This document shows positions 19,528-40,033 of a DNA stretch of 64,000 bases, piece after piece; the stretch's first letter is position 1; each line of letters opens with the position of its first letter. Under the pieces are notes generated by a model. It was not told the DNA's origin. It ran no database searches and saw only the letters and a list, made by a program, of their open reading frames with translations. A program made the translations under genes and the position numbers. The DNA is from Salinisphaera orenii subsp. orenii MK-B5. Lineage in GTDB: Bacteria > Pseudomonadota > Gammaproteobacteria > Nevskiales > Salinisphaeraceae. Location of the stretch: positions 62,001 through 126,000 of the forward strand of contig NZ_AYKH01000002.1 of NCBI RefSeq assembly GCF_003788635.1, written 5' to 3'.

Positions 19528-19612
19528 ATTGAGGCCGGCGTCCCGGTCGATGAATACTGCATGCACGGCCACTCGGCCGATGCACAAGACGAAAAATCCG
19601 AAGGGGATGGAT

Positions 19613-21937
19613 ATGGGAGCAACAAGAGGCCTCTGCATGGCCCTGGGGGTGCTGTGCGCGACGACCGCGGCGGCACAGGACAACGAACTCGGCGCCATCG
19701 AGGTGATCGGGGCAACGCCGTTTTCGGGCAGCGACATCGACGCGGAGCGCTATCCGGCCAACGTGCAGCATGGCGATGCCGAGGACATCGCCGACAGCGC
19801 GACGCTCAACCTCAATGAATACATGAATCAGGAACTGGGCAGCGTCCACGTCAACGACGCGACCAACAACCCGTTCCAGCCGGATCTCAACTACCGCGGC
19901 TACACCGCGTCGCCGCTGCTCGGCCTGCCCCAGGGGCTGTCCGTTTACCAGGACGGCGTGCGCGTGAACGAGCCGTTCGGCGACACCGTCAACTGGGGCC
20001 TGATTCCCGACGTGGCGATCGATTCGATCGACCTCGTGCCCGGCTCCAACCCGCTGTTCGGCCAGAACACGCTGGGCGGCGCGATTTCGGTCAAGACCAA
20101 GACCGGCTTCACCTACGAGGGCAGTGAGTTCGAATTCTTCGGCGGCGACTTCGGCCGCTACGGCGGTCACGTCCAGGCCGGCGGCAACGACGGCGAGACC
20201 GGCTGGTACTTCGCCGCCCAGGGCATGTCGGAAGACGGCTGGCGGGACTTCTCGGATTCCGAGGTGACCCAGCTGTTCACCCAGTTCTCGACGCTCACCG
20301 ACAACGGCACGCTGGATTTCTCGATCACCGCGGCCGACAACACCCTCCGCGGCAACGGCGCGATACCGCGCGAACTGGCCGACGCCGAGGGCCGGGACTC
20401 GATCTTCACCTACCCGGACGAAACCAATCCGAACATGGTGATGCTCAATCTCCGCGGCACCGAAGAGATGACCGAGGACTTCACGCTGGCCTGGGGCGCC
20501 TACTACCGCCGCAACGAGATCAACACCTTCAACGGCGACGGTTCCGAGTTCGAAGCCTGCGACGGCAATCCGGGCGTACTCTGTGAAGAAGCCGAAGGCG
20601 GCGGGGAACCCGAGGTCGTGGTCGATACCGACGGCAACCCGATCGCGACGCGCCCGGCCGTGCTGGGCGGCACCCAGAACACCTCGCAGACCAAGGAGGA
20701 CGGCTTCGGCTTCAACCTTCAGGGGCAGCAGAACGGCGTACTCGGCGGCGAACTGATCGTCGGCACCAGCCTCGACTACGGCAGCAGCGAATTCCAGTCG
20801 CGCACCGAGCTGGCGCGCCTGACCGACGAGCGCGGCACCGTCGGCAGCGGCATCTTCAGCGGCGAATCACTGACGGGCGTGTCGGCCCACAACAGCACCG
20901 CCAGCCTGTTCTTCATGCAGCGCACGCCGCTGACCGACAGCGTCGAGGCCACCGTCTCCGGACGCTACAACCGCACCGCCATCTCTCTGCACGACACCTC
21001 GCCGGGCTATCCGGGCGAAGAGGACGACGGCACCAGCCTGAGCGGCGATCACGAGTTCAAACGGCTGAATCTGGCCGGCGGCCTGACCTGGGAGATCAAC
21101 GATCACCTGACCAGCTTCGGCAGTGTCTCGCAGTCCTCCCGGGCGCCTTCGCCGGTCGAGCTCACCTGTGCGAATCCGGACGCGCCGTGCCGACTGCCCA
21201 ACGGCTTCGTCGACGATCCGCCGCTCGAACAGGTGGTGGCCACGACCTACGAGATCGGCCTGCGCGGCGGAAACGACGACCTGCACTGGAGTGCCGCGGC
21301 CTTCCGCTCGGACAACCAGGACGACATCCTGTTCATCGCGGCCGAATCGCGCTTCGCCGGCTACTTCGACAACGTCGGCAAGACCCGGCGCCAGGGCGTC
21401 GAGCTCGGCCTGGACTGGACGTTCGCGGACAGCTGGCGCGTCTCGGCCAACTACACCTACCTGAACGCCGAGTTCCGCGATCCGTTCATCACCAATTCCC
21501 CGAACCATCCGCTAGCCGACGACGACGCCGCGCCCGGCGACGATCCGACGCAGCAGGTGGAGTCCGGTGATCGCATCCCGCTGATCCCGGAGCACCTGTT
21601 CAACGTGGGTCTCGACTGGCGCGCGACCGATCGTCTGATGGTGGGCATGGATGTCATCGGCAACGGTGACCAGATCTACCGCGGCGACGAATCGAACACC
21701 GACGACGAACAGATCGACGGCTATGCCATCGTCAACGCCAACGCCTCGTTCAAGGTCACCGACCGCATCACGACGTTCGTGCGGGTCAACAACCTGTTCG
21801 ATTCCGACTACGAAACCTTCGGCCTGTACGGCGAAGCCGACGAAGTGCTCGAAGGCGATCGCTACGAAGATGCCAGCCGCTTCATCGGTCCGGGCGCGCC
21901 CCGGGGCATCTGGGGCGGTGTGCGCGTGGAGCTCTAG
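19613..21937 (+). CDS. TonB-dependent outer-membrane receptor (candidate metal or metallophore receptor)
   Basis: The protein has 774 residues: signal peptide to about 20, a TonB-box-like stretch (AIEVIGATP), a plug domain (about 50-165, with NYRGYTASPLLGLPQGLSVY and NEPFGDTVNWGLIP), then a 22-strand-type barrel ending GGVRVEL. The family imports iron chelates, cobalamin, PQQ or metallophores using TonB energy. The extracellular regions are strongly acidic (for example EEAEGGGEPEVVVDTDG, DDDAAPGDDP). Position between the NarL-type pair and a PepSY protein, near a lanthanide-type alcohol dehydrogenase, suggests a LutH-like role; uptake of PQQ or iron chelates remains possible. The start at 19613 is chosen for spacing to AAGGGG; ATGs at 19580 and 19607 are alternatives. 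Confidence 0.85.
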   Translation: MGATRGLCMALGVLCATTAAAQDNELGAIEVIGATPFSGSDIDAERYPANVQHGDAEDIADSATLNLNEYMNQELGSVHVNDATNNPFQPDLNYRGYTASPLLGLPQGLSVYQDGVRVNEPFGDTVNWGLIPDVAIDSIDLVPGSNPLFGQNTLGGAISVKTKTGFTYEGSEFEFFGGDFGRYGGHVQAGGNDGETGWYFAAQGMSEDGWRDFSDSEVTQLFTQFSTLTDNGTLDFSITAADNTLRGNGAIPRELADAEGRDSIFTYPDETNPNMVMLNLRGTEEMTEDFTLAWGAYYRRNEINTFNGDGSEFEACDGNPGVLCEEAEGGGEPEVVVDTDGNPIATRPAVLGGTQNTSQTKEDGFGFNLQGQQNGVLGGELIVGTSLDYGSSEFQSRTELARLTDERGTVGSGIFSGESLTGVSAHNSTASLFFMQRTPLTDSVEATVSGRYNRTAISLHDTSPGYPGEEDDGTSLSGDHEFKRLNLAGGLTWEINDHLTSFGSVSQSSRAPSPVELTCANPDAPCRLPNGFVDDPPLEQVVATTYEIGLRGGNDDLHWSAAAFRSDNQDDILFIAAESRFAGYFDNVGKTRRQGVELGLDWTFADSWRVSANYTYLNAEFRDPFITNSPNHPLADDDAAPGDDPTQQVESGDRIPLIPEHLFNVGLDWRATDRLMVGMDVIGNGDQIYRGDESNTDDEQIDGYAIVNANASFKVTDRITTFVRVNNLFDSDYETFGLYGEADEVLEGDRYEDASRFIGPGAPRGIWGGVRVEL

Positions 21938-23030: not shown

Positions 23031-23843
23031 TTACCCCTTGCGCCGCACCAACCCCCGCTGCGGATCGTAGCCCCAGACGGCGATCGCGAAGAAAGCCGCG
23101 AGCGCGCCGGCGACCACGGCGAAGGCGACGGCGTTGAACTGGCCGTACATCGCGAAGCGCACCAATTCCACGCCGTGGGTGAACGGGTTGATGCGCGACA
23201 GCTGGTAGATGATCGTCGCGCCCGACTCCTCCAGCTTCCACAGCGGATACAGCGCCGGCGACAGAAAGAACATCGGGAAGATGACGAAGTTCATGGTGCC
23301 GGCGAAGTTCTCGAGCTGCTTGATGTAGACCGACAGCAGCAGCCCGAGCGCGCCGAGCATGAGCCCGGTCAGGATGAGCGCGGGCAGCACCGTGAGCAGA
23401 CCCGGCCACCACGGCAGGTCGACGCCGAACAGGGCACAGACCACGAGAAACGCGTAGGCCTGCAGCACCGACAGCACGGTGCCCGCGGTCAGCTTGCAGG
23501 CAAGCAGCACGCTCCGCGGCAGCGGCGCGGTCAGCAGCAGCCGCATCAGGCCCATCTCGCGGTCGTAGACCATCGCCAGCGACGACTGCATGCCGTTGAA
23601 CAGCAACACCATGCCCAGCAGCCCCGGCACCACGTAGACCTGATACTCGATGTAGCTGTCGTAGGGCGGCAGCACGGAGACGCCGAAGACGTTCTTGAAG
23701 CCGGCGGCGAAGATCAGCAGCCACAGGCTCGGGCGCACCACGGCCGAGGCGAGACGGCCGCGCTGGTGGAAGAACTTGACCGTCTCGCGCGAGGACAGCG
23801 CCAGCAGCGCCTGCAGGACATGGCCGATGCGCGGCAGGCTCAT
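23031..23843 (-). CDS. pedC: ABC-2 type permease of the PQQ-alcohol-dehydrogenase-linked Ped system
   Basis: The 270-residue protein has six hydrophobic segments of ABC-2 type and the family blocks GMQSSLAMVYDREMGLMRLLL and FFLSPALYPLW. It matches the permease found beside PQQ-dependent alcohol dehydrogenases (PedC). In Pseudomonas putida the PedA1A2BC system is needed for growth that depends on rare-earth elements. ABC-2 permeases usually export, so the direction of transport is unclear. It is the last gene of the seven-gene leftward operon and starts by ATGA overlap with the preceding stop. Confidence 0.88.
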   Translation of the reverse strand: MSLPRIGHVLQALLALSSRETVKFFHQRGRLASAVVRPSLWLLIFAAGFKNVFGVSVLPPYDSYIEYQVYVVPGLLGMVLLFNGMQSSLAMVYDREMGLMRLLLTAPLPRSVLLACKLTAGTVLSVLQAYAFLVVCALFGVDLPWWPGLLTVLPALILTGLMLGALGLLLSVYIKQLENFAGTMNFVIFPMFFLSPALYPLWKLEESGATIIYQLSRINPFTHGVELVRFAMYGQFNAVAFAVVAGALAAFFAIAVWGYDPQRGLVRRKG

Positions 23844-25081
23844 GACGCGTCCTCCACGGGCCGCTCGCAGGCGCTCTCACGCGGGTCGAAGCCGAGGGTG
23901 TCCAGATAGTTGTCCGGATGCAGGAAACCTTCCAGCGGCGCGCGCGCGATCACCCAGTTGCCGCTCGCCAGCAGAATCGGCTGGCGCAGCTGGCCGTTCC
24001 AGTGCCGATAGCCCATGCGGTAGCCCTTGAAGCCGTCGAGATTGAATTCGTCGCCAAGCATGTAGTCGACGAGCGTGCCGTGGCCGGTTTCACCCGTGCG
24101 TTGAACCGCCTCGACGACCGACTTGACCGCCACCCAGGCAGCCCAGTCGTAGGCGGTCATGTGTCGATCGGCCTTGTCCTCCAGCCGATTGTTGAGCTGG
24201 CGTGCGCCGTGACGCATCCAGGCCCAGTGCCAGGCCTGCGGTACCAGGCCGCTGCTGCCGACGACCGGCCGTGGTTTCTGGACCGCGAAATTGGCGCGGC
24301 GGGAGAACTCGCCCTGGGTATCGGCGATATAGACCACATCGTAGTCCAGCCCCGAGGTCAGCAGCTTGGGGTTGTTCTTCTCGCGCTCGCGCGGGTTGTT
24401 GCCAAGCACGAACCGGCGCTCGGCCACCACGTTCAGGCCGAAGCGCTCGGCCGAACGCCGGAAGGAGTCCGCCAGCACGGCGTCGGCGCGCTCCGGCCCG
24501 ACCAGAAGCAGTACGTCGTTCCACTGGCGCGAGACCAGGTATTGCGCGAGCGCGTCGTTGCGCATGGCGTCGGACGGAATCGTGTGCAGCAGGTTGGCCT
24601 GACAGTGCGCGCCCCTGAGGCGATCGTCGCGGGCGGCCACGTTGAACAGCGTGATGTCCTCGCCGGCGAACTCGTCGGCCACGCGCGAGACCGTCCCCGG
24701 CGGCAGATCGAGCAGAAAGAAGCGCGTGTCCTGATCGCGCATCTCGCGTATCGCGGCCAGCACCTCACGCGTATTGCCGACCTGCCGCTCGTCGAGCGAG
24801 AATTCAACGCCGGCTGAGATGCCCGGGAAGCGCGCCTCGTCGATCGCCACGCGGGCGCCGGCGACCGGCCGGCCCCAGGGCTCGCCCTGGAACTCCTGAT
24901 CGAGCCGGGCCTGCGAGTAGCGCGGATCCTCGTCCCAGCCGATGTAGCCGAAGGCGAACGGAGTGAGATCGTCCTTCTGCGCCAGCGCCGACGACGGCAG
25001 GCCCGCCGTCAGCACCGCCAGCAGCATCAGCGCGGCGATCAGGCATCGTCCGTCACGCCCTCGCCTGCGGTTCGCGAGCAT
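23840..25081 (-). CDS. Substrate-binding protein of the Ped-type ABC system
   Basis: The exported protein of about 413 residues has a signal peptide (LIAALMLLAVLTAGLPSSALA) and a periplasmic-binding fold like branched-chain amino-acid receptors. It matches the binding protein specific to PQQ-alcohol dehydrogenase systems (PedA group). Visible blocks include FAFGYIGWDEDPRYSQARLD and YDWAAWVAVKSVVEAV. The ATG at 25081 follows GAGGTGG; a GTG six bases further upstream is possible. Two Cys (near 16 and 186) do not form a lipobox. The ligand is unknown; the metal or a metal chelate is the attractive hypothesis. Confidence 0.82.
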   Translation of the reverse strand: MLANRRRGRDGRCLIAALMLLAVLTAGLPSSALAQKDDLTPFAFGYIGWDEDPRYSQARLDQEFQGEPWGRPVAGARVAIDEARFPGISAGVEFSLDERQVGNTREVLAAIREMRDQDTRFFLLDLPPGTVSRVADEFAGEDITLFNVAARDDRLRGAHCQANLLHTIPSDAMRNDALAQYLVSRQWNDVLLLVGPERADAVLADSFRRSAERFGLNVVAERRFVLGNNPREREKNNPKLLTSGLDYDVVYIADTQGEFSRRANFAVQKPRPVVGSSGLVPQAWHWAWMRHGARQLNNRLEDKADRHMTAYDWAAWVAVKSVVEAVQRTGETGHGTLVDYMLGDEFNLDGFKGYRMGYRHWNGQLRQPILLASGNWVIARAPLEGFLHPDNYLDTLGFDPRESACERPVEDAS

Positions 25082-25089
25082 CGCCACCT

Positions 25090-26088
25090 CTACTCCGACG
25101 CCGTATCGACGACCACGCTGTGCGGCACCCGGCCGACGGGAATCGAGCGCAGCTGCTCGCGTTCGTCAACGTCGACCACCGACATGTCGTCGGACAGACC
25201 GTTGGTCACGTACAGCTGGCTGCCGTCGTTGGACAGCGCGACGCCCCAGGCGCGATCGCCCACGAGCACGTAGTCCTGCACCTCGCGCGAGGCCACGTCC
25301 ACGAACGCCACGTGGTTGGCGCGACCGAGCGTCACGAAGGCCTGGCTGCCGTCGTCGGAGAACGTGATCCCGACCGGGGTGACGTCCTCGGGCCGGAAGC
25401 CGTCCGGATCGAACTCGATGGTGTCGGTGACTTCGTTGCTCTCGGTGTCGATGATGCTCACCGAACCCGACAGTTCGTTGGTCACCCACAGATGGGCGCC
25501 GTCCTCGGTCAGCGCGAAGCGGCGCGGCCGATTGCCGACCACGATGTTGGCCTCGATCTCGTGGCTGTCGAGGTTCACCCGGTGGACCATGTTGGCCACC
25601 TCCGAGGTGACGTAGGCGGTCTTGCCGTCCGGCGTGACCAGCACGCCCTCCGGCTCCTGGCCGACGTCGACCTGGGTGACTGCCTTCTTGGCCTCGATGT
25701 CGTAGACCGTGAACCGGGCGTCGTCCTCGTTGGAGATGTACAGATGCTTGCCGTCCGGGCCGATGGCGAAGATCTCCGGATCGTCGATGCCGGTCAGGCG
25801 GTCGACGACCTCACCCTTGTCGACATCGATGATGTCGATCGAGTCGTCGTCGCCGCAGGCCACGTAGAGCCGGCTGTGGTCGGGCGAGAACGCCAGCCAG
25901 CGCGGCCGCTCCGAGACCTCGATGGTGTCCGTCTTTTCGAGGTTCTCGCCGTCGAGCACGGTGACGACGTCGTCGTCCTCGCTGGATACGTAGACATTGC
26001 CGGTACCGGCCGCCCACAGCGCGGGGCTGGCAACGAGCAGCGCGGCCGCGGCGATGCCCGGCAGCAATCGATTGGATGAAATAGACAT
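25090..26088 (-). CDS. YVTN beta-propeller protein of the Ped-type system
   Basis: The 332-residue exported protein has a signal peptide (GIAAAALLVASPALWA) and about seven repeated blades, each with the pattern NVYVSSEDDDVVTVLD, RLYVACGDDDSIDIID or HLYISNEDDARFTVYD. It matches the propeller subfamily found with PQQ-linked catabolism ABC genes. It is periplasmic and many blade loops are acidic (EDDD, GDDDS, EDDA), so metal binding is conceivable. The ATG at 26088 overlaps the pedB stop (TGATG) and follows GGAG; a TTG one codon earlier is less likely. Confidence 0.85.
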   Translation of the reverse strand: MSISSNRLLPGIAAAALLVASPALWAAGTGNVYVSSEDDDVVTVLDGENLEKTDTIEVSERPRWLAFSPDHSRLYVACGDDDSIDIIDVDKGEVVDRLTGIDDPEIFAIGPDGKHLYISNEDDARFTVYDIEAKKAVTQVDVGQEPEGVLVTPDGKTAYVTSEVANMVHRVNLDSHEIEANIVVGNRPRRFALTEDGAHLWVTNELSGSVSIIDTESNEVTDTIEFDPDGFRPEDVTPVGITFSDDGSQAFVTLGRANHVAFVDVASREVQDYVLVGDRAWGVALSNDGSQLYVTNGLSDDMSVVDVDEREQLRSIPVGRVPHSVVVDTASE

Positions 26089-26861
26089 CAAACAGTCTCC
26101 TCTTTCTTCTGTGGCGTCTCCCCGGTCAGGGCCATGAAGGCCGCACCGAGCGAGTTCGTTCCGGCCCGTTCGCGCAATGCCGCCGGCGTGTCCACGGCGA
26201 TGCGCTGGCCCTGGTGCAACACGATCACGCGGTGCGCGCGCTCGGCTTCATCGACGAGATGGGTCGCCCAGAGCACGCCCATGCCGCGATCACGGCAAAG
26301 CTGGTGGACATAGTCAACCAGCAGCTCGCGGGAACCGGGATCGAGGCCCACTGTGGGCTCGTCCATGAGCAGCAGCGCCGGATCGTGCAGCAGCGCCCGC
26401 GCGAGCTCGACCTTGCGCCGATTGCCGCCCGAGAGGTTGCGCGCGGCCTCGCGGCTGCGCTCGGCCAGGCCGATGCGCGCCAGTTCGTCCTCGATGCGGC
26501 GCTTCGCCGCCCGGCCCATGCCGTGGAGGCGGGTGTGGAAACGCAGGTTCGCGGCCACCGACAGATCGAGGTCGAGCGTGGGCTGCTGGAACACCACGCC
26601 GAGCTTGGCCAGCGCGGCCCGGGACTCGTGGCGCATGTCGTGGCCGGCGACCTCGATACGCCCTTCGTCGGGCACGAACAGACCGGTCAGCAGCTGAAAC
26701 AGCGTGCTCTTGCCGGCGCCGTTGGGTCCCAGCAGCGCCACGAATTCGCCGCGGGCGACCGCGATCGAGAGGGTATCCAGCGCCTTGAGGCTGCCGTAGG
26801 ACTTGCTGACCTCCTCGACGGCCAGCGCTGCGCGATCCGGCGTGTCGGCTGCGCCGCTCAT
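26088..26861 (-). CDS. pedB: ATPase of the Ped-type ABC system
   Basis: The 257-residue ATPase has Walker A LGPNGAGKSTL, signature LSGGNRRKVELARAL and Walker B LLLMDEPTVGLDPGS. The signature with NRRK is typical of ABC-2-linked ATPases. It pairs with the ABC-2 permease two genes downstream. Its ATG overlaps the stop of the upstream taurine-type ATPase (ATGA), which fuses two transporter systems in one operon. Confidence 0.88.
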   Translation of the reverse strand: MSGAADTPDRAALAVEEVSKSYGSLKALDTLSIAVARGEFVALLGPNGAGKSTLFQLLTGLFVPDEGRIEVAGHDMRHESRAALAKLGVVFQQPTLDLDLSVAANLRFHTRLHGMGRAAKRRIEDELARIGLAERSREAARNLSGGNRRKVELARALLHDPALLLMDEPTVGLDPGSRELLVDYVHQLCRDRGMGVLWATHLVDEAERAHRVIVLHQGQRIAVDTPAALRERAGTNSLGAAFMALTGETPQKKEETV

Positions 26862-29764: not shown

Positions 29765-30082
29765 ATGCAATCCCGATTCCGGCTGCCGATTGTCCTGATC
29801 GCACTCGCCGTCGGCCCGGCCCAGGCCCAAGCCCTGGCCGGCACGACCGACGGCGCCGATCTGGCCGCCGCCTGCACCGGCTGTCACGGGCCGGGCGGCC
29901 ACAGCGCCGGCGCGGTGCCCGACATCGCCGGCATGCCGGTGGCCGAGTTCGAGCGGCGCATGGCCGCGTTCCGCGACGGCGAAGGCACGATCATGAATCG
30001 TCTCGCGCCGGCCTACGATGCCGCCGCGACGGCCGCCCTCGCGCGGTATTTCGCCGACCGACCCGAGCCCGCCTCGCCATGA
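29765..30082 (+). CDS. Small c-type cytochrome, flavocytochrome c heme subunit type
   Basis: The 105-residue exported protein has a signal peptide (IVLIALAVGPAQA) and one heme motif CTGCH with GPGGHSAGAVPDIAGM after it, as in FccA/SoxE-type monoheme cytochromes. It accepts electrons from the flavoprotein encoded next. ATGA overlap joins the two genes. No strong ribosome-binding site precedes the ATG. Confidence 0.82.
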   Translation: MQSRFRLPIVLIALAVGPAQAQALAGTTDGADLAAACTGCHGPGGHSAGAVPDIAGMPVAEFERRMAAFRDGEGTIMNRLAPAYDAAATAALARYFADRPEPASP

Positions 30083-31389
30083 GCGACGGTCACGATGCGC
30101 GTCGCCGCGCGCTCATGCGCGCCCTGGCGGGCACCGGCCTGCTCGCGGCAGCGGCGCCGATGCCGATCCTCGGCGCGCAGCGCGGGCCCCGGATCGTGAT
30201 CGCCGGCGGCGGCTTCGCCGGTGCCAGCTGCGCGCTGGCGTTGCGGCGGCTGGCCCCGGCGGCGCGGGTCACCCTGATCGACCGGCAGCGGGAATTCGTC
30301 ACCGGCCCGTTCTGCAACACGGTCGTCGGCGGTTTGAACCCGGCCGCCGCGATCACGCAGGACCATCGCGGCCTGGCCGCGGCCGGCGTGGATGTCGTCC
30401 ACGCCGAGATCGAGGGCGTGGATCCCTCGGCACGCGCCGCGCATCTGGCCGACGGCCGCCGGATCGCGGGCGACCGGCTGGTGGTCGCCCCCGGCATCGA
30501 CTTCGACTACGACGCGCTCGACGGCTACGGCCCGGAAGCGCTGGACCGCGTACCCGCGGCCTGGCCGGGCGGCGCCGCGGCGCTGCGCCGCCTGCACGGC
30601 CAGCTGCAGGCCATGCCCGAGGACGGCCGCGTGGTTCTCACCGTGCCGGACAATCCCTACCGCTGTCCGCCGGGACCCTACGAACGCGCCAGCCTGATCG
30701 CGCATTTTCTGGCCGAACACAAGCCGCGCGCCCGCGTGCTGCTGCTCGATGCCAAGAACCACTTCTCCAAGGAGCCGCTGTTCCGGATCGGCTGGGACAG
30801 CCGCTATCCGGGCCGCGTCGAATGGCGCGGACGTGACGACGGCGCCCGGGCGATGGCCATCGACGTCGCCGGCCGCCGGGTGCACACGGTCGGGGGTGAC
30901 GAGATCGCCGCCGACGTGCTCAACGTCATTCCCCCGCAGCGGGCCGGCCGTCTCGCACGCGACGCGGGGCTGGCCGACGACGCCGGCTGGGTGCCGGTGA
31001 ACGTGCACGACTTCGCGGCGCCCGGCCACGAGGGGGTGCACGTGCTGGGCGACGCGATCCGCGCGGAGCCGATGCCGAAGTCGGCCTATTCGGCACACAT
31101 GCAAGCCCAGGTCTGTGCCCGGGCGATCGCGCAGGCGCTGGCGGGCGAGCCGCCGGGCGAAGCGCCTCTGATCAACGCCTGCTACAGCCTGGTCGCGCCG
31201 GACTATGGCATCAGCGTCACCGAGGTCTACCGGATCAACGGCGACCGCATCGCCGCGGTCCAGCAGGCCGGCGGCACATCCGCGTTGGCGGCGGGCCCCG
31301 ACACGCGCCGGGCCGAATCCGAATACGCCCGTTCGCTGTATCGGAATCTGGTGCGGGACAGTTTCGGCAGCGGCGCTGCGCCGGGGTGA
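30079..31389 (+). CDS. Flavocytochrome c sulfide dehydrogenase-type flavoprotein (FccB-like)
   Basis: The 436-residue protein has a twin-arginine-like leader (RRRALMRALAGTG), an FAD-binding site (RIVIAGGGFAGASCAL), a Cys at the covalent FAD position (FCNTVVGG) and the redox Cys pair in NPYRCPPGPYE and INACYSLVAP, followed by the FCSD C-terminal domain (DYGISVTEVYRIN). FCSD enzymes oxidise sulfide or bound sulfane sulfur in the periplasm and pass electrons to the c-type partner. Lying near a SoxYZ-like carrier of a quinoprotein cluster, it may act on carrier-bound sulfur rather than free sulfide; this is inference. Confidence 0.85.
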   Translation: MSDGHDARRRALMRALAGTGLLAAAAPMPILGAQRGPRIVIAGGGFAGASCALALRRLAPAARVTLIDRQREFVTGPFCNTVVGGLNPAAAITQDHRGLAAAGVDVVHAEIEGVDPSARAAHLADGRRIAGDRLVVAPGIDFDYDALDGYGPEALDRVPAAWPGGAAALRRLHGQLQAMPEDGRVVLTVPDNPYRCPPGPYERASLIAHFLAEHKPRARVLLLDAKNHFSKEPLFRIGWDSRYPGRVEWRGRDDGARAMAIDVAGRRVHTVGGDEIAADVLNVIPPQRAGRLARDAGLADDAGWVPVNVHDFAAPGHEGVHVLGDAIRAEPMPKSAYSAHMQAQVCARAIAQALAGEPPGEAPLINACYSLVAPDYGISVTEVYRINGDRIAAVQQAGGTSALAAGPDTRRAESEYARSLYRNLVRDSFGSGAAPG

Positions 31390-31446: not shown

Positions 31447-32184
31447 ATGGGGCTATCGACGACAGCGCAACCACACCGCGAAGGCGCTGCATGGCGCGTC
31501 CTGCAGCAGTGGCTGATCATCACCGGCGTCCTCGTGTTCGCATTGTTCGTGGCGCATCAGTACCGGGCCCTCGAGGCGCTGGTCGCGGGCGATCGCACGC
31601 GCATGACGCTCGTGATCGCGGCGATCTTCGTCGTGACCTGGTGCTACGCAGGGCTGCGCAGCGCTTGGCTGTCACGCGAGGCGGCCCGCTTCGACGCCAT
31701 CATGATCGGCGCCCGAAACGGCGACACGCTCGCCGTGGCCACGGACGGCGGCCTGAGCGTCGGCGCGCGGCGCGTGCCCGACAGCGCCGGCGCGCACTAT
31801 CTGGCCGCACTCCTGCATATTCGCAACACCCGTTCCGCGGAGGCGCCGGAGGCGCTCGTCGACGTGCTCGGCGAACGCCTGTCCGGCCCGCATGAATTCG
31901 GCTGGTTCATCGTCAACGGCCTGATCAAGCTCGGGCTGCTGGGCACGGTGATCGGCTTCATCGTGATGCTGGCGACCGTGGACAGCGCCACCTCCTTCGA
32001 CGTCGCCGCGGTCCAGCAGCTGCTGGTCGGCATGAGCCAGGGCATGCGGGTGGCGCTGTACACGACGCTCGCGGGTCTGGCGACGAGCATGGTGCTGAGC
32101 CTGCACTATCTGCTGCTCGATCGGGCCGCCGACCGGCTGCAGGCGCGGATCGTGACCTTCGCCCAGCAGCGGCACCTCGGCTAA
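31447..32184 (+). CDS. MotA/TolQ/ExbB-family proton channel-like protein
   Basis: The 245-residue membrane protein has four hydrophobic segments near 20-40, 52-70, 157-178 and 200-220. The third and fourth carry the family patterns LIKLGLLGTVIGFIVML and ALYTTLAGLATSM, including the Thr/Ser residues lining the proton path of ExbB and MotA. GGGAGAAC precedes the ATG. The next gene encodes an ExbD-like partner, so the pair should form a proton-driven stator. No TonB, OmpA-like or flagellar gene is present nearby. Confidence 0.78.
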   Translation: MGLSTTAQPHREGAAWRVLQQWLIITGVLVFALFVAHQYRALEALVAGDRTRMTLVIAAIFVVTWCYAGLRSAWLSREAARFDAIMIGARNGDTLAVATDGGLSVGARRVPDSAGAHYLAALLHIRNTRSAEAPEALVDVLGERLSGPHEFGWFIVNGLIKLGLLGTVIGFIVMLATVDSATSFDVAAVQQLLVGMSQGMRVALYTTLAGLATSMVLSLHYLLLDRAADRLQARIVTFAQQRHLG

Positions 32185-32194
32185 CACGACGCGC

Positions 32195-32803
32195 ATGGCG
32201 TTCCGACGCAAGCGCCGCGGCACCGAGACGGATCCCTTCACGGATCTGCTGTTCAACGCCCTGCTGGGCTTCACCTTCATGTTCCTGATTTCGGTGTTCT
32301 TCCTGAATCCGCCGACCAAGGAAGGCGACATCCCGGCGAAGGCCGAGTACATCATCACCGCCACCTGGGAACCGGGCCGACCCGACGACGTCGACCTGTG
32401 GGTGCGCGGGCCGGGCGGCACCAAGGTGTGGTACCTCAATCCGGAGTCGGGGCTGATGAACCTCGACCGCGACGACCGCGGCCTGCAGAACGACGAGATG
32501 ATCGTCGACGGCCGGCGCGTAACCAATGACCTCAATCAGGAAGTGGTCACGATCCGCGGTCAGGCGCCGGGCGAGTACGTCGTCAACCTGCACTATTACG
32601 CCACCGAGAGCGATCGCGAAGAGGGCCGGCCGGTGGACGTCGAGGTGACGGTGACCCGGATCAATCCGCAGGTCTCGATCGTCTACCGGAACAACACCAC
32701 ACTCGAATACGTCGGCCAGGAGAAGACCGCGGTGCGCTTCACCGTCAACGATGACGGCTCGGTCGACGACGTGAACACCCTGCCGGCATCGATCGTGGAA
32801 TGA
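32195..32803 (+). CDS. ExbD/MotB-like membrane anchor with a large periplasmic beta domain
   Basis: The 202-residue protein has one N-terminal helix (about 15-37, TDPFTDLLFNALLGFTFMFL) with an Asp placed as in ExbD and MotB. The rest is periplasmic and unlike ExbD: a beta-rich domain with DDVDLWVRGPGGTKVWYLN, LNLDRDDRG and GEYVVNLHYYA, resembling DUF2135/YfaP-type domains. Residues after about 165 form a possible strand-rich tail. The pairing of a stator helix with this domain is unusual, and the force transmitted probably acts on an unknown periplasmic partner. Confidence 0.65.
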   Translation: MAFRRKRRGTETDPFTDLLFNALLGFTFMFLISVFFLNPPTKEGDIPAKAEYIITATWEPGRPDDVDLWVRGPGGTKVWYLNPESGLMNLDRDDRGLQNDEMIVDGRRVTNDLNQEVVTIRGQAPGEYVVNLHYYATESDREEGRPVDVEVTVTRINPQVSIVYRNNTTLEYVGQEKTAVRFTVNDDGSVDDVNTLPASIVE

Positions 32804-32830
32804 TCGGGATCGGCTTCAACGAGGTATGCC

Positions 32831-33343
32831 ATGACTGAGACCCTTTGGCTGCTCGCCGGCGCCTACGTGGCCCTGGGCGTGCTCGTGCTCGCGCTCAACA
32901 TCCGCAGCGGCTGGCCGCTGTGGGTGCGACTGGCCTGCATCGTGGCCGTGAGCGCGCTCTACTTCGTGACCTGGCAATCGCTGCAGGGGCTGCGCGGCTG
33001 GCCGACCGGTCAGGCTCTGCCCCACCATTTCATTCTCAACGCGTCGACAGTGACCGAACCCGACGAGGGCGACGGCGACCCCGGCCGCATCTACCTGTGG
33101 GTGACGCCGGTGATCGACGACGACCCGATCGGCACGCCGCGCGCCTTCGCGCTGCCCTACGAGCGCCGGCTGCACACACAGGTCCAGCGCGCCCGCGACG
33201 AGATGCGCAACGGCCAGCTGCAGCTCGGCACGGCCACTCCGGACGTCGAGGGCCGGCGTGCCGCCGACACCAACTACTTCGCGCCGGAAACGCAGCAGAT
33301 CCAGCTCGAGGACCTGCCCGAGCCGAGCCTGCCGGAGAAATGA
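32831..33343 (+). CDS. Uncharacterised membrane-anchored protein of the stator-like module
   Basis: I do not recognise a family for this 170-residue protein. Two hydrophobic segments (about 5-25 and 32-50) are followed by a soluble region with IYLWVTPVIDDDPIGTPRAFALPYERRLH, a helical stretch rich in Arg/Gln and an acidic, Pro-rich tail. GAGGT precedes the ATG. It lies between the ExbD-like gene and the lipoprotein gene, whose start overlaps its stop, so it probably works in the same complex. Confidence 0.7.
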   Translation: MTETLWLLAGAYVALGVLVLALNIRSGWPLWVRLACIVAVSALYFVTWQSLQGLRGWPTGQALPHHFILNASTVTEPDEGDGDPGRIYLWVTPVIDDDPIGTPRAFALPYERRLHTQVQRARDEMRNGQLQLGTATPDVEGRRAADTNYFAPETQQIQLEDLPEPSLPEK

Positions 33344-34068
33344 GCATGCGCCGATCGTTTCGCACCGGCCTGGTCCTGGCCGCCGTCGGCACGCTGCTGG
33401 CCGGCTGTGACAGCGCGCCGGAACCCGATGCGCTGTTCCCGCTCGCAGCGGGGCTCGAATGGCAGTATCGCGTGACCACCCGTCCCCACGGCGAAGACCC
33501 GCGCGACAGCCGCCTGACCATGAGCAACGTCGAACGCGGCTACTTCGCCGGCGAGGAGGACATCCTCATCCGGCGCAACCAGCACGGCACGCGCTACTAC
33601 ATCGCCGAACGCGAGGACGGACTCTATCGGGTGGCCGTGAAATCGGTCGCACAGACGGTACCGATCATGGATCAGCCGCCGGTGCGCATCCTGCCGCGAC
33701 CGGTCGAGACCGGCCAGCGCTGGCGCGCCCCCGCCCACACCTATCTGCTCGGCCGCGCGCGCACCTTCATCTCCGACCATGCGCCCGGCAACACCATTGA
33801 TCTCGATTACCACATCGAAGCCACCGACGCCGAGATCGAGGTGCCCGCAGGCCGTTACAGCGACTGCGTGCTCGCAGTCGGCCGGGCCAGCTTCCATCTG
33901 GACGCGGAGACGGGCTTCGCCGCCTCGGACGTGCCCATCGAGCAGCGGGAGTGGTACTGCCCCGGCGTCGGCCTCACGCGGCTGTCGCGGGACGAACGCC
34001 TGACCAGCGGCGACCGCACGATCACCGGTGGACGCATCGAGATCGTGCTGACGGGGGCGCCGGGCTGA
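33340..34068 (+). CDS. Uncharacterised lipoprotein of the stator-like module
   Basis: The 242-residue product has a lipobox LLAGC near residue 22. The mature part is beta-rich (LFPLAAGLEWQYRV, FAGEEDILIRRNQHGTRYYIA) and ends with GVGLTRLSRDERL, a pattern seen in lipoproteins with a repeated strand-turn fold. The start at 33340 overlaps the previous stop (ATGA); an ATG at 33346 is the alternative. An outer-membrane-facing partner for the stator pair is a reasonable guess. Confidence 0.72.
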   Translation: MSMRRSFRTGLVLAAVGTLLAGCDSAPEPDALFPLAAGLEWQYRVTTRPHGEDPRDSRLTMSNVERGYFAGEEDILIRRNQHGTRYYIAEREDGLYRVAVKSVAQTVPIMDQPPVRILPRPVETGQRWRAPAHTYLLGRARTFISDHAPGNTIDLDYHIEATDAEIEVPAGRYSDCVLAVGRASFHLDAETGFAASDVPIEQREWYCPGVGLTRLSRDERLTSGDRTITGGRIEIVLTGAPG

Positions 34069-34352: not shown

Positions 34353-35300
34353 CTACTCGGTGCGCTCGGGCAGCGCCGACTGCTCGATGGCCGGATACAG
34401 ATGCGAGACCGAACGGCGGTACTCGCCGGGCTGCACCGCGAGCCGCGCCCAGCGCTCGGGCAGCGGCTGGAACATCACCTCGGCCGCACTCATGCCGTCG
34501 TTCGCATCCTGCGTGAAGCGATCCACCAGCCAGGCGAGATAGTCGCCGGTCTGGCTCAGGGGCGCGTCGTCCGGCGTGCTCGGCCCGTGCCCCGGGACCA
34601 GCACGGCGAATTCGCGCTCCCGGGTCTGCGCCAGTACCGCCCGCCAGGCGTCGATATCGGCATTGGGTGTGGTCGGCGCGCGATCGTGGAAGGCGATGTC
34701 GCCGGCGAAGAGCACGCCGGTGGTGGTATCCATAATCATCAGATCGGCGGCGGTGTGGCCGGAGGCCGCCAGCAGTTGCAGCCGATGATCGCCGAAGGTG
34801 GCGGTCGTGCCGGCCTCGACGGTCTGATCCGGCACGACGGCGCTGGTGCCGCGCATGGCCGCGCCCACGAGGTTGTACAGATTCCCGGCCAGATCGGCGC
34901 CAACGGCGCGCACAGCGTCGATGGTGCCCGGCAGCGCCGCGATCGGCACATCGTCGAAGGCGTTGTTCCCCAGAAAATGATCCGGATGGGCGTGGCTGAT
35001 ATAGACCTGGACCACCGGCTGCTCGGTGATCCTGCCGATGGCTTCGCGCAGCGCCTGGCCGTAGAGGCGCGAGGGTCCGGTGTCGATGACCACGACGCCC
35101 TCGTCGGTCACGATGAAACCGGTATTGGCGATCGCGCCATGATTGGCGTCGTTGAAGTTCTCCTGGGCACCGAACACGACGTAGGTATCGGCGGCGACCT
35201 CCACCGGCTCGATGTCGTAATAGCGCGATGCCGCCATCGCCCCCGGCATTACGAGCAGCCCCGCCAGCAGCAGGCACCCGGACAACGCACCCCGGCTCAT
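34353..35300 (-). CDS. Quinoprotein-relay zinc metallohydrolase (metallo-beta-lactamase fold)
   Basis: The 315-residue exported protein (signal LLLAGLLVMPGAMA) has the zinc motif HAHPDH at 103-108, a third His in AASGHTAADL, an Asp in LFAGDIAF and a final His in VPGHGPST. It matches the metallohydrolase of the quinoprotein relay set, which co-occurs with SoxYZ-like carriers and PQQ dehydrogenases. It may hydrolyse a thioester on the carrier, but the reaction is not established. It starts by ATGA overlap and is last in the operon. The 284 bases before 34353, facing the convergent lipoprotein gene, show no gene. Confidence 0.85.
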   Translation of the reverse strand: MSRGALSGCLLLAGLLVMPGAMAASRYYDIEPVEVAADTYVVFGAQENFNDANHGAIANTGFIVTDEGVVVIDTGPSRLYGQALREAIGRITEQPVVQVYISHAHPDHFLGNNAFDDVPIAALPGTIDAVRAVGADLAGNLYNLVGAAMRGTSAVVPDQTVEAGTTATFGDHRLQLLAASGHTAADLMIMDTTTGVLFAGDIAFHDRAPTTPNADIDAWRAVLAQTREREFAVLVPGHGPSTPDDAPLSQTGDYLAWLVDRFTQDANDGMSAAEVMFQPLPERWARLAVQPGEYRRSVSHLYPAIEQSALPERTE

Positions 35301-36064
35301 GAGGCGGGCGCCGGAATGCGGGCGCTAAAGACATTGCCGTTGTTGTCACGGCCTTCCACGGTGACCGCACCGGCATGCTTCAGATCGAGCGCGAACACCG
35401 GGTTCTCGGCGACCGGCTCGTCCGGTTCGAGCCGGGCCAGCGTCCGGCCGTCGGCATCGCTGACGGTCACGCTGCGGATGAAAAACGCCGGGATGCCGGC
35501 GGCCAGGCCGGTGTCCATCGGATGCACGACCCGAAACTTCAGGCGCTGGCTGCGATCGCCCCGGGCCCACAGCCGGCCCTCGACCTCGCCCAGACGGGAC
35601 TCCCACAGCGGGCTGGCGCTGCCGACGCTCGGCGCGGTGCAGCCGCCACCCTCGGCGTCCACCCAGACGCCGCCGACGTGCCAGGTGCCGTCGGCGGTGC
35701 GCATCGCCGCGCGTATCGGCGTGGCTTGCTGCACCTTGAAATGGAAGCCGATCGCGGGTGCGGCGCGAACCGGGTAATAGTCCAGTACGGGGTTGATCGG
35801 GCTGTGGTCGGCGAGCACCAGCACCCGCTCGACGTCCTCCAGGCCCTCGGCCCGCACCTGCACTGGCGTGGCCAGCGAATCCTCGGCGTAGTCGGGGGCG
35901 ACGACCCGAACCCGGTCGTCGAAAACCACCTTCGCATCGGGGAAGTACTGCCGCAGCATATAGCGCCACTGAGACGAATCCAGCGGATCATCCGACGCTG
36001 CAGCCGCCGCCGGCATCGCCAGCACCAAAAGCATCAGGGCCAGGGTTTTAGAGATCGTGTTCAT
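35297..36064 (-). CDS. Quinoprotein-associated SoxYZ-like sulfur carrier
   Basis: The 255-residue exported protein fuses SoxY-like and SoxZ-like parts. The SoxY half (about 30-150) ends with DAEGGGCTAPS, placing Cys142 as the likely sulfur- or acyl-carrying residue; the SoxZ half follows (RVVHPMDTGLAAG, FFIRSVTVSDADG). Such carriers occur in quinoprotein clusters together with the metallohydrolase, and are thought to shuttle intermediates on the Cys. The ATG at 36064 lies 187 bases after the fusion gene; no separate promoter is evident in that gap, so it probably belongs to the same transcript. Confidence 0.88.
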   Translation of the reverse strand: MNTISKTLALMLLVLAMPAAAAASDDPLDSSQWRYMLRQYFPDAKVVFDDRVRVVAPDYAEDSLATPVQVRAEGLEDVERVLVLADHSPINPVLDYYPVRAAPAIGFHFKVQQATPIRAAMRTADGTWHVGGVWVDAEGGGCTAPSVGSASPLWESRLGEVEGRLWARGDRSQRLKFRVVHPMDTGLAAGIPAFFIRSVTVSDADGRTLARLEPDEPVAENPVFALDLKHAGAVTVEGRDNNGNVFSARIPAPAS

Positions 36065-36250: not shown

Positions 36251-37678
36251 TCAGCTGGTGGTCGGGCGCTCCTCCCCGCCGGCCGCGTCGCCGTCATCAT
36301 GCGGCGAACGATACGGTACATCGTACTGCTTGAAGATCGCCTCGATGGTGCCGTCGCTGCGCATTTCGGCCATTTCGGTCCGGATCGCCTGTGCCAGATC
36401 GGGATTGCCGGCCTTGATGGCCACGCCCACGTCCCAGTCCGTCTGATACATACCGGTGAGCTTGACCGTGCGCGTCGTCACGTTCTGTTCGTCGAGCATG
36501 GCCGCGGCCCCGGCCAGTTCGCCGACCGGGGCCATCACGGCACTCACCTCGCCCTCGTTGAGCGCGGTCATGGCCTCGGGCACCGAATCGAAGTGCACGA
36601 CGTCCTCGCGCAGCTGGCCCTGAAACGCGGAGGTCAGAAAATAATCGCCGAGGGAATCGATCTCGACACCGATGCGTTGGCCCTTGAGCGCCAGCGCGCC
36701 GTCGATGTCGCCGCCCAGGCGGCTGGCATCGTAGGCGAAACCCATGGTCTCGTTGTAGTAGGGCGCGATGAAGGTCGCCTGATCGTTGGCGTTCTGGAAG
36801 GCATCCGCCATGCCCACATGCAGCATCGCATCCGCCGTACCACCGCCGAGGTAGTGCCCCTTCCAGACCTGGTTTCGGATGTCGTCGCCCATGGTTTCGT
36901 CGGCGGTGAAGCTGCGCAGCGAGAAGCCGACCCCCAGCCGCTCGGCCAGCGCCCGGCCGATGTCGACATCGATGCCGGTCACACCGGCGCTCTCCGAGCT
37001 GTAGGACCACGGCGGGAAGTCGCGATAGACCGCCACTTCGATGGTGCCGTTGTTGCGGATCCGCTGCAGTCCGTCGGGACGGTCGGTGTCGGCCGCCGGC
37101 GTGGCGCGGGCCGTGTCCGCGTCGCGGCCATCAGCATCCGTGGATGGCTCGCCGGTCGAGTCGGCCGCCGCCGAATCCTCCGTTTCGGCTTCGTCTTCGT
37201 CGCTTGAGCCGTTCTCGTCGGACTGCTCGTACAGGGACTCGAGATCCTTGTCGTTGTACTCGTAGTGGCGCTTGTCGACATAGGCGCGGATCGCCCACAT
37301 CGTCTTCTGGTCGAGCACGCCCTCGAAGGCGGGCATCTTGGTCATGCCCGCACGCTTGACGCCGTTACGGACGTGGTTGATGAAGTACTCGTCGTACTGC
37401 GGCCCGAGCTCGCGCAAATCCGGCGCGATGCCGCCCGAGATCATGTCGATGCCGTGACAGCGGGCGCAGTTGGCGTCGTAAGCACTTTCGCCGACGTCCA
37501 TGGCCTTCTTCGAACCCCGGTAGGGATTCTCGCTCAGCCACTGGCCATCGGGCAGGTCGGCTAGCGCGCTGGTATCGACCGCCTCGCCGCCGCCCCCGTG
37601 CTGGGCGAAGGCCGGCACGCCGAACACGATCGCGCCCGTGGCGGCCAGCGCCATCGCCGCATGCTTGAATCTCGTCAT
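36251..37678 (-). CDS. Cytochrome c-550/MoxJ-like binding-protein fusion
   Basis: The 475-residue periplasmic protein joins two modules normally made separately. After the signal peptide (ending PAFA), residues 33-152 form a cytochrome c with heme motif CARCH (71-75) and a Met ligand in MTKMPAF, very like the PedF-type cytochrome encoded just upstream. An acidic low-complexity linker (about 152-198) leads to a binding-protein fold of the quinoprotein-associated MoxJ/XoxJ-like class (205-465: GTIEVAVYRDFPPWSY, GIDVDIGRALAERLG). The fusion could bind the dehydrogenase and take up its electrons in one step. The ATG at 37678 follows GGAGGAGAA. Confidence 0.88.
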   Translation of the reverse strand: MTRFKHAAMALAATGAIVFGVPAFAQHGGGGEAVDTSALADLPDGQWLSENPYRGSKKAMDVGESAYDANCARCHGIDMISGGIAPDLRELGPQYDEYFINHVRNGVKRAGMTKMPAFEGVLDQKTMWAIRAYVDKRHYEYNDKDLESLYEQSDENGSSDEDEAETEDSAAADSTGEPSTDADGRDADTARATPAADTDRPDGLQRIRNNGTIEVAVYRDFPPWSYSSESAGVTGIDVDIGRALAERLGVGFSLRSFTADETMGDDIRNQVWKGHYLGGGTADAMLHVGMADAFQNANDQATFIAPYYNETMGFAYDASRLGGDIDGALALKGQRIGVEIDSLGDYFLTSAFQGQLREDVVHFDSVPEAMTALNEGEVSAVMAPVGELAGAAAMLDEQNVTTRTVKLTGMYQTDWDVGVAIKAGNPDLAQAIRTEMAEMRSDGTIEAIFKQYDVPYRSPHDDGDAAGGEERPTTS

Positions 37679-38266: not shown

Positions 38267-40033
38267 TTACTGCTTGAGGCCGTCGGGGATCTTGAAGACC
38301 CAGACGCTGCCCCCCTGGTTGAGGAACTTGACGCGCTTGGCGACTTCGCCGCCCCACAGCGGAACGGCGCCGCCCCAGCCGGAAGTCACGGAGACGTACT
38401 GATCGCCGTCCATCTCCCAGGTGATCGGCTGACCGACCACGCCGGAGCCGGTCTGGAACTTCCACAGCTCCTCGCCGGTCTCGGCGTCGAGCGCCTTCAG
38501 ATAGCCCTCGGGCGTGCCGTAGAAGACCAGGCCGCCGGCCGTGGTCATCGTGCCGCTCCACAGCGGCGCGTTGTTCTTGGCCTCCCACTTGATCTCCCCG
38601 GTCTTCGGGTCGATCGCACGCACTGCGCCGATATAATCTTCGTTGAGCGGCTGGATGTTGAAGCCCGCACCCAGATAGGCCGCGCCGGCCTTGTAGGTGA
38701 TCGGCTCGTTCCAGATGTCCATGCCCCACTCGTTGGTCGGCACGTAGAACAGCCCCGTGTTGGGGTTGTAGGACATCGGCATCCAGTTCTTCGCCCCCAG
38801 GAAGGACGGCGTCACGAACACCGACTCGCCCTTGCTGCCCTCGGTCTCCGACGGATCGCCCGGGCGCTTGCCGGTCTCGACCGGACGGCCGGTCTCCATG
38901 TCGACCTTCTCGGCCCAGTTGACCTCGTTGACGAACTTGGTCGCGCTCTCGAGATCGCCGTTCGTGCGGTCCAGCACGTAGAAGAACCCGTTGCGGTCGG
39001 CCGACGCACAGTATTTCTCGCCGTCGCTGTCGAACGGGATGCACATGTTGGTGCCGTCGTAGTCCCAGGCGTCATGCGGCGTCTTCTGGTAATGCCAGGC
39101 GATCTTGCCGGTCTCGGGCTCGATGGCCAGCATCGACGACGAGAACAGGTTGTCGCCCGGACGCATGTGCGAGTTCCAGGGCGAGGGGTTGCCGGCACCG
39201 AAATAGATCAGGTCGGTTTCCGGATCGTAGGTCCCGCCCAGCCATGTGGCCGCGCCGCCGCGCTTGTACATGTCTCCGGGCCAGGTCTCGCCGCGGGTGC
39301 CGCTGATGCCGTTCTCGGTCTTTTCGCCGTCCTTCCAGACATAGCCCATGTTGCCTTCGACGGTGGGCCGGCTCCAGAGCATCTCGCCCGTCTTGGCGTC
39401 ACGCGCCTCCACTCTGCCGAGCACGCCGAACTCGCCGCCGGAGACGCCGGTGACGACCATGTCGTTCACGATCAGCGGCGCCGCGGTGTAGGAGTATCCC
39501 TCCTTGTAGTCGGCCATGGTCTCGCTCCAGACCACGTCGCCGGTCTCCTGGTCCAGCGCGACGAGCTTGGCGTCGAGCGTGCCGAAGATGAACAGATCGC
39601 CGTAGAGCGCGCCGCCACGGTTGACGACGTCACAGCAGGGCATGATGCCGTCGGGCAGACGCTGCTCGTACTGCCAGATCTCCTCGCCGGTCTTCACGTC
39701 GATCGCCCAGGCGCGCGAATACGACCCGGTGACGAACATCTTGCCGTCGTGAACCAGCGGCTGGGATTCCTGGCCGCGCTGCTTCTCGCCGCCGAACGAG
39801 AACGCCCACGCCGGGTAGAGATGTTCGACGTTGTCGGTGTTGATCTTGTCCAGCGGGCTGAAACGCTGCATCTGGGTGCCCATGCCCACGTGCAGCACGT
39901 TGTCGGTCGATTGCTGGTCGTTCTTGATCTGTTCCCAGCTGACCCCGGCGGCCATTGCCGTCGAAGACGCCAGAAACAGCGTCCCGAGCGCCAACAACCC
40001 CCCTCGCCTTCCGAGGACGGAATCGGTTTTCAT
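38267..40033 (-). CDS. PQQ-dependent alcohol dehydrogenase, lanthanide-type active site
   Basis: The 588-residue periplasmic quinoprotein has a signal peptide to about 29 and the eight-bladed propeller pattern (repeated W-docking motifs such as [14 protein letters not shown]). Adjacent Cys133-Cys134 form the disulfide ring near PQQ. Metal-ligand positions are Glu201 (GGEFG), Asn282 (AGNPSPWN) and catalytic Asp324 in WDYDG. Asp326, two residues on, is the residue characteristic of lanthanide-dependent XoxF, ExaF and PedH enzymes; calcium enzymes have a neutral residue there. It oxidises primary alcohols and possibly aldehydes and passes electrons to the downstream cytochrome. GGAGGAGACC precedes the ATG, and a sigma-54 promoter lies upstream. 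Confidence 0.92.

Follow-up and report, generated by a model that had tools for sequence, protein, structure and literature searches.

An apparently undescribed ExbB/ExbD-like gene module with an unusual anchor domain and its branch-specific linkage to PQQ alcohol oxidation genes

What might a putative proton-driven trans-envelope motor do beside genes for quinoprotein-dependent alcohol oxidation? Few classes of such motors have a known job, and others are predicted without a function. The question is raised by a stretch of 64,000 nucleotides from Salinisphaera orenii subsp. orenii MK-B5 (contig NZ_AYKH01000002.1, positions 62,001 to 126,000; hereafter the window), which at positions 31447–34068 holds four adjacent genes, here named A, B, C and D, that a reading of the sequence alone had put forward as a stator module resembling ExbB/ExbD, not yet described and fitted with a novel periplasmic domain. 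Our analysis supports that proposal, establishing the gene set, its conserved order, its motifs, the predicted folds and a branch-specific linkage to quinoprotein genes. With some reserve, we lean towards a proton-driven stator carrying an unusual domain on B, one branch of which has been recruited to pyrroloquinoline quinone (PQQ)-dependent alcohol oxidation; a proton-driven stator is the simplest reading because the module combines a channel half, an anchor with an aspartate and paired threonines.

The four genes and their products

The four open reading frames (ORFs) form a compact operon on the plus strand (Table 1), in which the start codon of D (ATG at 33340) overlaps the stop codon of C (ATGA). 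Of 61 genomes, the window's own included, 12 hold a match to B at E ≤ 0.001, and all 12 keep the order A-B-C-D. Scanning genome contigs, one genome per species, with the patterns DPFTDLLF and M[HN]LDRDDR returned 582 pattern matches, 547 of which encode a B relative, confirming that the four-gene module is real and not a chance arrangement; drawn by these patterns and kept to the best 80 of the 547, that sample is biased as regards motif conservation. Our second sample comes from 370 genomes of the class, searched by profile; B is present in 41 of them, of which four (G125, G323, G375 and G376) were neither fetched nor typed. Near B, A is present at 124 and C at 126 of 129 loci, and the B protein of S. 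halophila is 100% identical to that of the window. The family is widespread and represents a variant, apparently undescribed, among proton-driven stators.

The channel assignment of A, already made by the sequence-only reading, is borne out by a PF01618 match of 36.2 bits (cut-off 22.9), which covers only model positions 59–124 of 127, in the C-terminal half. By eye, the protein has four membrane segments, the last two of which carry the motifs GLLGT and ALYTT, kept across an alignment of 37 sequences (A3) and located where the pore threonines of ExbB sit. By motif count, the helix-3 residue is threonine in 104 of 125 A proteins, lysine in 10 and serine in one, the other 10 being unmatched. 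GLLGK was seen at L066, L068, L074, L075, L088, L097, L100, L101, L106 and L137, the same ten loci at which B reads DPFYDMLFNML; since they fall in one clade of the B tree, a single event probably accounts for them. Sequence searches of the PDB with A and with B gave nothing useful.

B consists of a single N-terminal membrane helix (residues 14–37) followed by a beta domain (model pLDDT, the per-residue confidence, 77.5; pTM, the confidence in the overall fold, 0.64), with the motifs DPFTDLLFN in the helix and LDRDDRG in the beta domain. The aspartate of DPFTDLLF (D17) is found in every one of the 49 members of the B alignment (A2), a set selected in part through this motif; in the less biased class sample, drawn by profile, it persists in 31 of 37 strong matches. 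On sequence grounds the motif resembles the PFxD motif of ExbD, and ExbD/TolR-like ORFs of the same genome read PYIDV, PLIDV, PLINV and PLTNV in the N-terminal helix. At six loci of the sister clade described below (L135, L136, L138, L139, L140 and L153) B has no aspartate at this place, reading QPFDPITAVLFK or close to it, and two C-like ORFs are found at each; these may represent an altered or non-conducting variant.

The helix and its aspartate uphold the anchor that had been proposed for B; kinship of its periplasmic part to YfaP and DUF2135 also emerges, in a weak form. A DUF2135 search across 56 genomes gave none, so E. coli YfaP was used for comparison, and hhalign aligned B to it with a probability of 64.8 (E 6.2e-5, score 37.2). 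None of 200 shuffled YfaP controls reached this score (best 29.6), and six other MG1655 proteins scored 13.5–18.5. DUF2135 itself (PF09906) is matched at E ≤ 0.01 by 10 of the 49 members, with 0.0014 as the best value and the B of the window not included, which suggests a weak relation between the B domain and DUF2135. The window's B matched no ExbD, TolR or OmpA-like family of Pfam or NCBIfam at E ≤ 1, and TIGR01352 (TonB) touches 18 of its residues at E 0.028, below cut-off.

By fold, the B model is closest to TerD proteins (3ibz at Z 10.3 with 134 residues aligned at 3.7 Å, 2qng at 9.8, 2qz7 at 9.6 and 2kxt at 7.9), the radial-spoke protein 7jtk also reaching Z 9.4 and the next row 6.5. At the sequence level, kinship to TerD (PF02342) gains no support: hhalign gives a probability of 0.2 when B is compared with four TerD proteins, a shallow set. 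Foldseek returned no PDB match to the B model at E ≤ 0.001, and the aspartate-rich stretch of B (residues 81–100) is modelled at a pLDDT of about 52–56; with no TerD profile support, no Foldseek match and this low pLDDT, we do not claim a metal-binding role for B.

C has two N-terminal hydrophobic segments, by eye, and a conserved C-terminal PEK or PDK. It matches no Pfam or NCBIfam family over cut-off, and no single Pfam family is matched by more than 3 of 37 C members at E ≤ 0.01. The D model (pLDDT 87.3) is closest in fold to 4fvs (Z 12.2) and 3fzx (YmcC-like by name, Z 12.1), followed at Z ≤ 9.0 by LmcA, DUF1849, lipid-transfer, barrel and LolA-type proteins. DUF3108_like (PF21347) is matched by 24 of 35 D members at E ≤ 0.01 (best 1.1e-8), and not by the window's own D. 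According to the E. coli rule, serine, glycine or alanine after the lipid-bearing cysteine favours the outer membrane, and aspartate retains a lipoprotein in the inner membrane. Among the 43 D proteins with a recognisable lipobox, drawn from the 60 ORFs best matching the D profile, 34 have serine, glycine or alanine at this place, so that D probably resides at the outer membrane in most species.

Two branches with different neighbours

A maximum-likelihood tree of 128 B proteins sets a sister clade of 73 rows (support 100/98; list transferred by hand from the tree) apart from the rows around the window; the remaining 53, with two distant rows excluded, form the window-side group. The duplicate rows L018, L020 and L021 (equal to L029, L031 and L030, respectively) were dropped, L152 was left out of the tree for its length, and L151, L152 and L155 (weak) were left out of the group counts. 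Some rows have identical B (the window and L029; L054 and L125; L036, L038 and L128; several sister-clade pairs), because some genomes of the class sample had also been included by name. Locus L031, on a contig labelled Endozoicomonas sp. G2_2, has a Salinisphaera-like module and cluster, and its B pairs with that of S. shabanensis in the tree; the genome is possibly mislabelled.

On the window side, D is present at 51 of 53 loci and a strict quinoprotein marker at 44 of 53 (42 of 49 with identical B collapsed), strict markers being SoxH- or SoxYZ-like proteins, PQQ dehydrogenase, Ped ABC parts, PqqB and the CXXCW protein. The search for these covered each retrieved stretch in full, reaching about 10 kb (13 kb in the case of the window); it used profiles built from the same loci, with score limits tightened after a looser first pass, and contig ends may hide genes. 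Counting the flavocytochrome c sulfide dehydrogenase (FCSD) flavoprotein as well brings the number to 47 of 53. Nine window-side loci are marker-free (L022, L023, L036, L049, L056, L064, L128, L131 and L132); the last two come from genomes (G414 and G324, respectively) that have a TIGR04558 match over its cut-off and a dehydrogenase of the lanthanide type on another contig.

The sister clade has other neighbours: a quinoprotein marker at 3 of 73 loci, D at 5, a protein with vWA and FHA domains at 43 and a YkuD-type L,D-transpeptidase at 50, the domain names being taken from one representative, L057 (PF03734, PF03625, and PF00092 with PF00498). Two of the three loci with a marker have an ABC permease only, probably a generic one, and the third (L124) has real relay-type neighbours. 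Mapped on the tree, the labels, which are not perfectly clean, change 7 times for type I and 5 times for type II, compared with about 42 changes in shuffles. One branch is truly associated with quinoprotein genes, the family as a whole is not; with so few markers in the sister clade, the core function of A-B-C is not quinoprotein-specific. Together with the unusual domain of B and the accessory C, the exchange of D on the window side for the vWA and FHA protein on the sister side suggests one engine with changeable partners.

Many sister-clade loci lie between NtrYX-like and TilS-AccA-DnaE-like genes, named by reading the sequences. At L046, L057, L059 and others the block runs NtrYX-like genes, L,D-transpeptidase, DUF302 (in many), A-B-C, vWA/FHA protein, TilS, AccA and DnaE-like genes, and is a candidate envelope system of its own. 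A ten-row subclade (L141–L150) has A and B and mostly a recognisable C, with neither D nor the vWA and FHA protein nearby. Four of its loci (L146, L147, L149 and L150) belong to gammaproteobacterial genomes of about 1 Mb (G184, G362, G425 and G283), which keep A-B and a weak C; at L146 and L149 the A-B pair stands between fumarase- and aconitase-like genes, likewise named by reading the sequences.

These surroundings are what one would expect if the module were a general, Tol-like envelope motor, in which A-B-C attends to peptidoglycan or outer-membrane upkeep and the adjacency to PQQ genes on the window side is an inherited arrangement with no working link. The frequent L,D-transpeptidase and vWA/FHA partners, the chromosomal setting of the sister clade and the persistence of the genes in the four small genomes all favour it, and the last of these points to a more general envelope task for the sister branch. 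Set against the recurrence and the joint absence described in the next section, we judge it rather unlikely. A further alternative, to which we give very little credence, is that the module is a sensor, proton flow or the state of the envelope gating a signal. The adjoining NtrYX-like genes and the L057 partner, which by eye has a hydrophobic segment between its VWA and FHA domains, would suit a sensor, whereas the window operon contains no signalling protein and the channel motifs are mostly kept.

Linkage to PQQ alcohol oxidation and a proposed motor

The linkage of the window-side branch is also seen at the level of whole genomes. TIGR04558, the model of the SoxH-like relay hydrolase, is matched over cut-off in 16 of 370 class genomes, comprising 8 of the 10 with a window-side B (the ten being G000, G020, G123, G150, G228, G266, G324, G361, G401 and G414) and 8 of the 360 others (Fisher p ~7e-11, a test that ignores ancestry, on counts entered by hand). 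When every B is counted, whichever its branch, it occurs in 9 of the 16 TIGR04558 genomes and in 32 of the 354 others (p ~7e-6, with the same provisos). Together with the locus counts, this bears out the earlier suggestion of a quinoprotein tie on the window side; as a general statement it is not supported, given the sister clade. Homologous modules away from quinoprotein genes and with a known function had been named as what would speak against such a tie; the sister clade supplies modules away from these genes, but no known function.

Within the genus (14 genomes), the module occurs in 5; these and 2 more, 7 in all, match the SoxYZ-like carrier, and a dehydrogenase of at least 87% identity is found in 4 of the 5 genomes with the module and in none of the 9 others. 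SoxH directly follows the FCSD gene in G003, and SoxYZ is kept while A to D are absent; the relay stretch of this genome also holds no dehydrogenase, two more distant ones (46% and 42%) being located elsewhere. This joint absence of module and dehydrogenase argues against a merely inherited adjacency, as does the recurrence of the PQQ link across Gamma- and Betaproteobacteria and in single metagenome-assembled genomes labelled Deltaproteobacteria/Myxococcota and Nitrospirota.

The window's dehydrogenase is nearest to PDB chains 6zcv/6zcw (847 bits), which we take to be lanthanide-dependent PedH, with 1flg further away (644 bits). The lanthanide-type aspartate (WD[YF]D) occurs in 19 of the 20 linked window-side dehydrogenases that score 600 bits or more, a set in which both the window and L029 are counted; the remaining one has serine, and a narrower motif fits 17 of the 20. 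In 23 control genomes, taking the best TIGR03075 match only, the motif is PedH-like in 4, XoxF-like in 12 and of other kinds in 7; the four with a PedH-like motif (G000, G020, G123 and G150) all have a window-side module. The aspartate is likewise present in all three dehydrogenases found beside TIGR04558 matches in genomes without the module, which makes lanthanide use a trait of the relay clusters, not one shown to belong to the module, and no proof for it.

The same evidence bears on whether the module is a second, dedicated energiser of a TonB-dependent receptor for uptake of lanthanide, PQQ or substrate. Such a receptor does lie in the same island (Table 1), which qualifies the earlier statement that no TonB, Tol or gliding partner is nearby, a statement that holds among the annotated neighbours; its family (f35) is grouped near the module at 8 of 89 loci, and the linked dehydrogenases are nearly all of the lanthanide type. 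Nonetheless, 8 of 89 is a small share, no TonB-like transducer over cut-off is encoded in the operon, and the lanthanide-type enzyme also accompanies relay genes without the module. The genome, moreover, already has a TolQR-like pair and three ExbB/ExbD-like operons, judged by neighbouring ORFs at four further PF01618 places, to which A-B-C-D adds a fifth stator set. We regard a receptor energiser as improbable.

In the proton-driven stator that we favour, A and B would be the two halves of an inner-membrane motor of the MotAB/ExbBD/TolQR kind, probably with five A around two B. Protons would pass between the threonines of the last two helices of A and D17 of B, and the B dimer would be turned or shifted in response. 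The DUF2135-like beta domain of B would take the place of an ExbD/TolR/OmpA-type domain, and C would be an accessory membrane partner. On the window side, we infer that the motor would convert ion flow into force and reach the outer membrane, working with lipoprotein D and serving the PQQ alcohol-oxidation system. Most likely it would drive a step across the envelope, in which a hydrophobic or lipid-anchored component might for instance be moved or released; the cargo is a guess, as are the outer-membrane transport and the periplasmic relay suggested earlier. The modelled fold of D, common to lipid-handling proteins, suggests that a lipid-like or hydrophobic component may be handled at the outer membrane for periplasmic alcohol oxidation, and the AtuA gene close to the operon, a single case, would fit hydrophobic alcohols.

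Several observations weigh against this reading. The core genes A-B-C are no less at home in the sister clade, six sister-clade B proteins have no aspartate at the usual place, and in ten A proteins lysine replaces the helix-3 threonine, ten more falling outside the motif. Half of the TIGR04558 genomes (8 of 16) have no window-side copy, the linkage counts are uncorrected for shared ancestry, and G005 has the module with no dehydrogenase above 47% identity. The lanthanide-type aspartate of the three module-free clusters (G293, G309 and G396) has been mentioned, and in the window's own D the residue after the lipid-bearing cysteine is aspartate, which by the E. coli rule would place this protein at the inner membrane.

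Compared with ExbBD and TolQR, which the host also has, the module shares PF01618 in A and a single helix with a PFxD-like motif in B, and differs in the four membrane segments of A, the DUF2135-like domain of B and the partners C and D; unlike Ton, its operon encodes no TonB-like protein over cut-off. It belongs to the same superfamily as MotAB and generic ion transporters, with no OmpA-like domain matched in B and no flagellar context seen. A 2025 stator survey in mBio (PMC12505986) describes, in the part consulted, a broad generic group including proteins of unknown function, and DUF2135 occurs nowhere in its main text. Likewise in part, PMC12204202 (MBE 2025) proposes vWA motor-coupled transducers as undescribed trans-envelope systems driven by the proton-motive force (PMF), with an aspartate helix fused to a periplasmic vWA domain in one family. 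Those sections suggest a resemblance in the proposed PMF drive and the alternative periplasmic domain, which is vWA there and DUF2135-like here; the vWA protein of our sister clade is separate and has an FHA domain (L057).

For A, ZorA models come out best in both NCBIfam and PADLOC, though weakly (NCBIfam 19.7 bits against a cut-off of 100), which gives the module a faint likeness to Zorya ZorAB; B, C and D have no PADLOC match, and no Zorya effector is found among the annotated neighbours. With that weak ZorA score and a B that PADLOC does not match, Zorya defence was rejected.

The surrounding genes resemble the Pseudomonas ped cluster as given in the consulted part of a 2026 review (PMC12997753), with PedF, SoxYZ-like and SoxH-like proteins, a PQQ dehydrogenase and an ABC transporter; the terms ExbB, TolQ and lipoprotein do not occur in the main text of that review. 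In Methylomicrobium alcaliphilum, the MotA/TolQ/ExbB genes MEALZ_3990/3991 are lower with lanthanum than with calcium, according to PMC6277846. No description of the A-B-C-D module was found among the titles and abstract openings returned by searches of one open-access library.

A bolder proposal, which we put forward as no more than tentative, is that Ton, Tol, Mot and Zorya are joined by this family as one more class of PMF-driven trans-envelope motor, marked by the DUF2135-like domain of B, with a PQQ branch dedicated to metal- and PQQ-dependent alcohol oxidation, in which proton flow would drive the handling of cofactor, lanthanide or hydrophobic alcohol between D at the outer membrane and the periplasmic dehydrogenase. 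How metals and substrates are handled at the outer membrane and in the periplasm in PQQ- and lanthanide-dependent alcohol oxidation is still poorly known, and this common (547 stretches), well-conserved family with its unusual periplasmic domain offers, in one branch, a testable phenotype in that process.

Gene layout around the operon

The features of the operon and its surroundings are collected in Table 1. All four components of the Ped-type ABC set score over cut-off (TIGR03861, TIGR03863, TIGR03866 and TIGR03864), and the start of the dehydrogenase was set at the ATG one codon inside the query. Scanning the locus for promoters and terminators gave nothing useful.

Table 1. Coordinates in the window of the A-B-C-D operon and of annotated genes around it.
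Feature	Position	Strand	Basis
A, MotA/TolQ/ExbB-type channel subunit, 245 aa	31447..32184	+	PF01618
B, ExbD-like anchor, 202 aa	32195..32803	+	Alignment, structure model, YfaP hhalign
C, accessory membrane protein, 170 aa	32831..33343	+	Alignment of 37 (A4)
D, lipoprotein, 242 aa	33340..34068	+	Lipobox LLAGC, structure model
Small c-type cytochrome	29765..30082	+	PF00034 21.4 bits (cut-off 21.3); PF13442 below cut-off
FCSD-type flavoprotein, directly upstream of A	30079..31389	+	PF21706 141.6 bits, PF09242 73.1 bits
Quinoprotein relay zinc metallohydrolase 1 (SoxH-like)	34353..35300	-	TIGR04558 392.7 bits (cut-off 300)
Quinoprotein-associated SoxYZ-like carrier	35297..36064	-	TIGR04557 203.4 bits (cut-off 140)
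PQQ alcohol dehydrogenase, WDYD motif	38267..40033	-	TIGR03075 772.9 bits (cut-off 480)
Ped-type ABC transporter set: permease, binding protein, beta-propeller protein, ATPase	23031..26861	-	
TonB-dependent receptor, ~9.5 kb upstream of the operon	19529..21937	+	PF00593 161.9 bits, PF07715 41.5 bits

Between the SoxYZ-like carrier and the dehydrogenase, the minus strand carries an apparent fusion of a PedF-type cytochrome c550 and a family-3 solute-binding protein (36254–37678), adjoined by a separate PedF (37723–38199). Beyond the dehydrogenase are AtuA (acyclic terpene utilisation; 45781–47127, minus strand), a TRAP transporter large subunit (47168–48700) and a CoA-transferase-like protein (50033–51220) that falls below curated cut-offs; these three may form a catabolic cluster beside the quinoprotein island.

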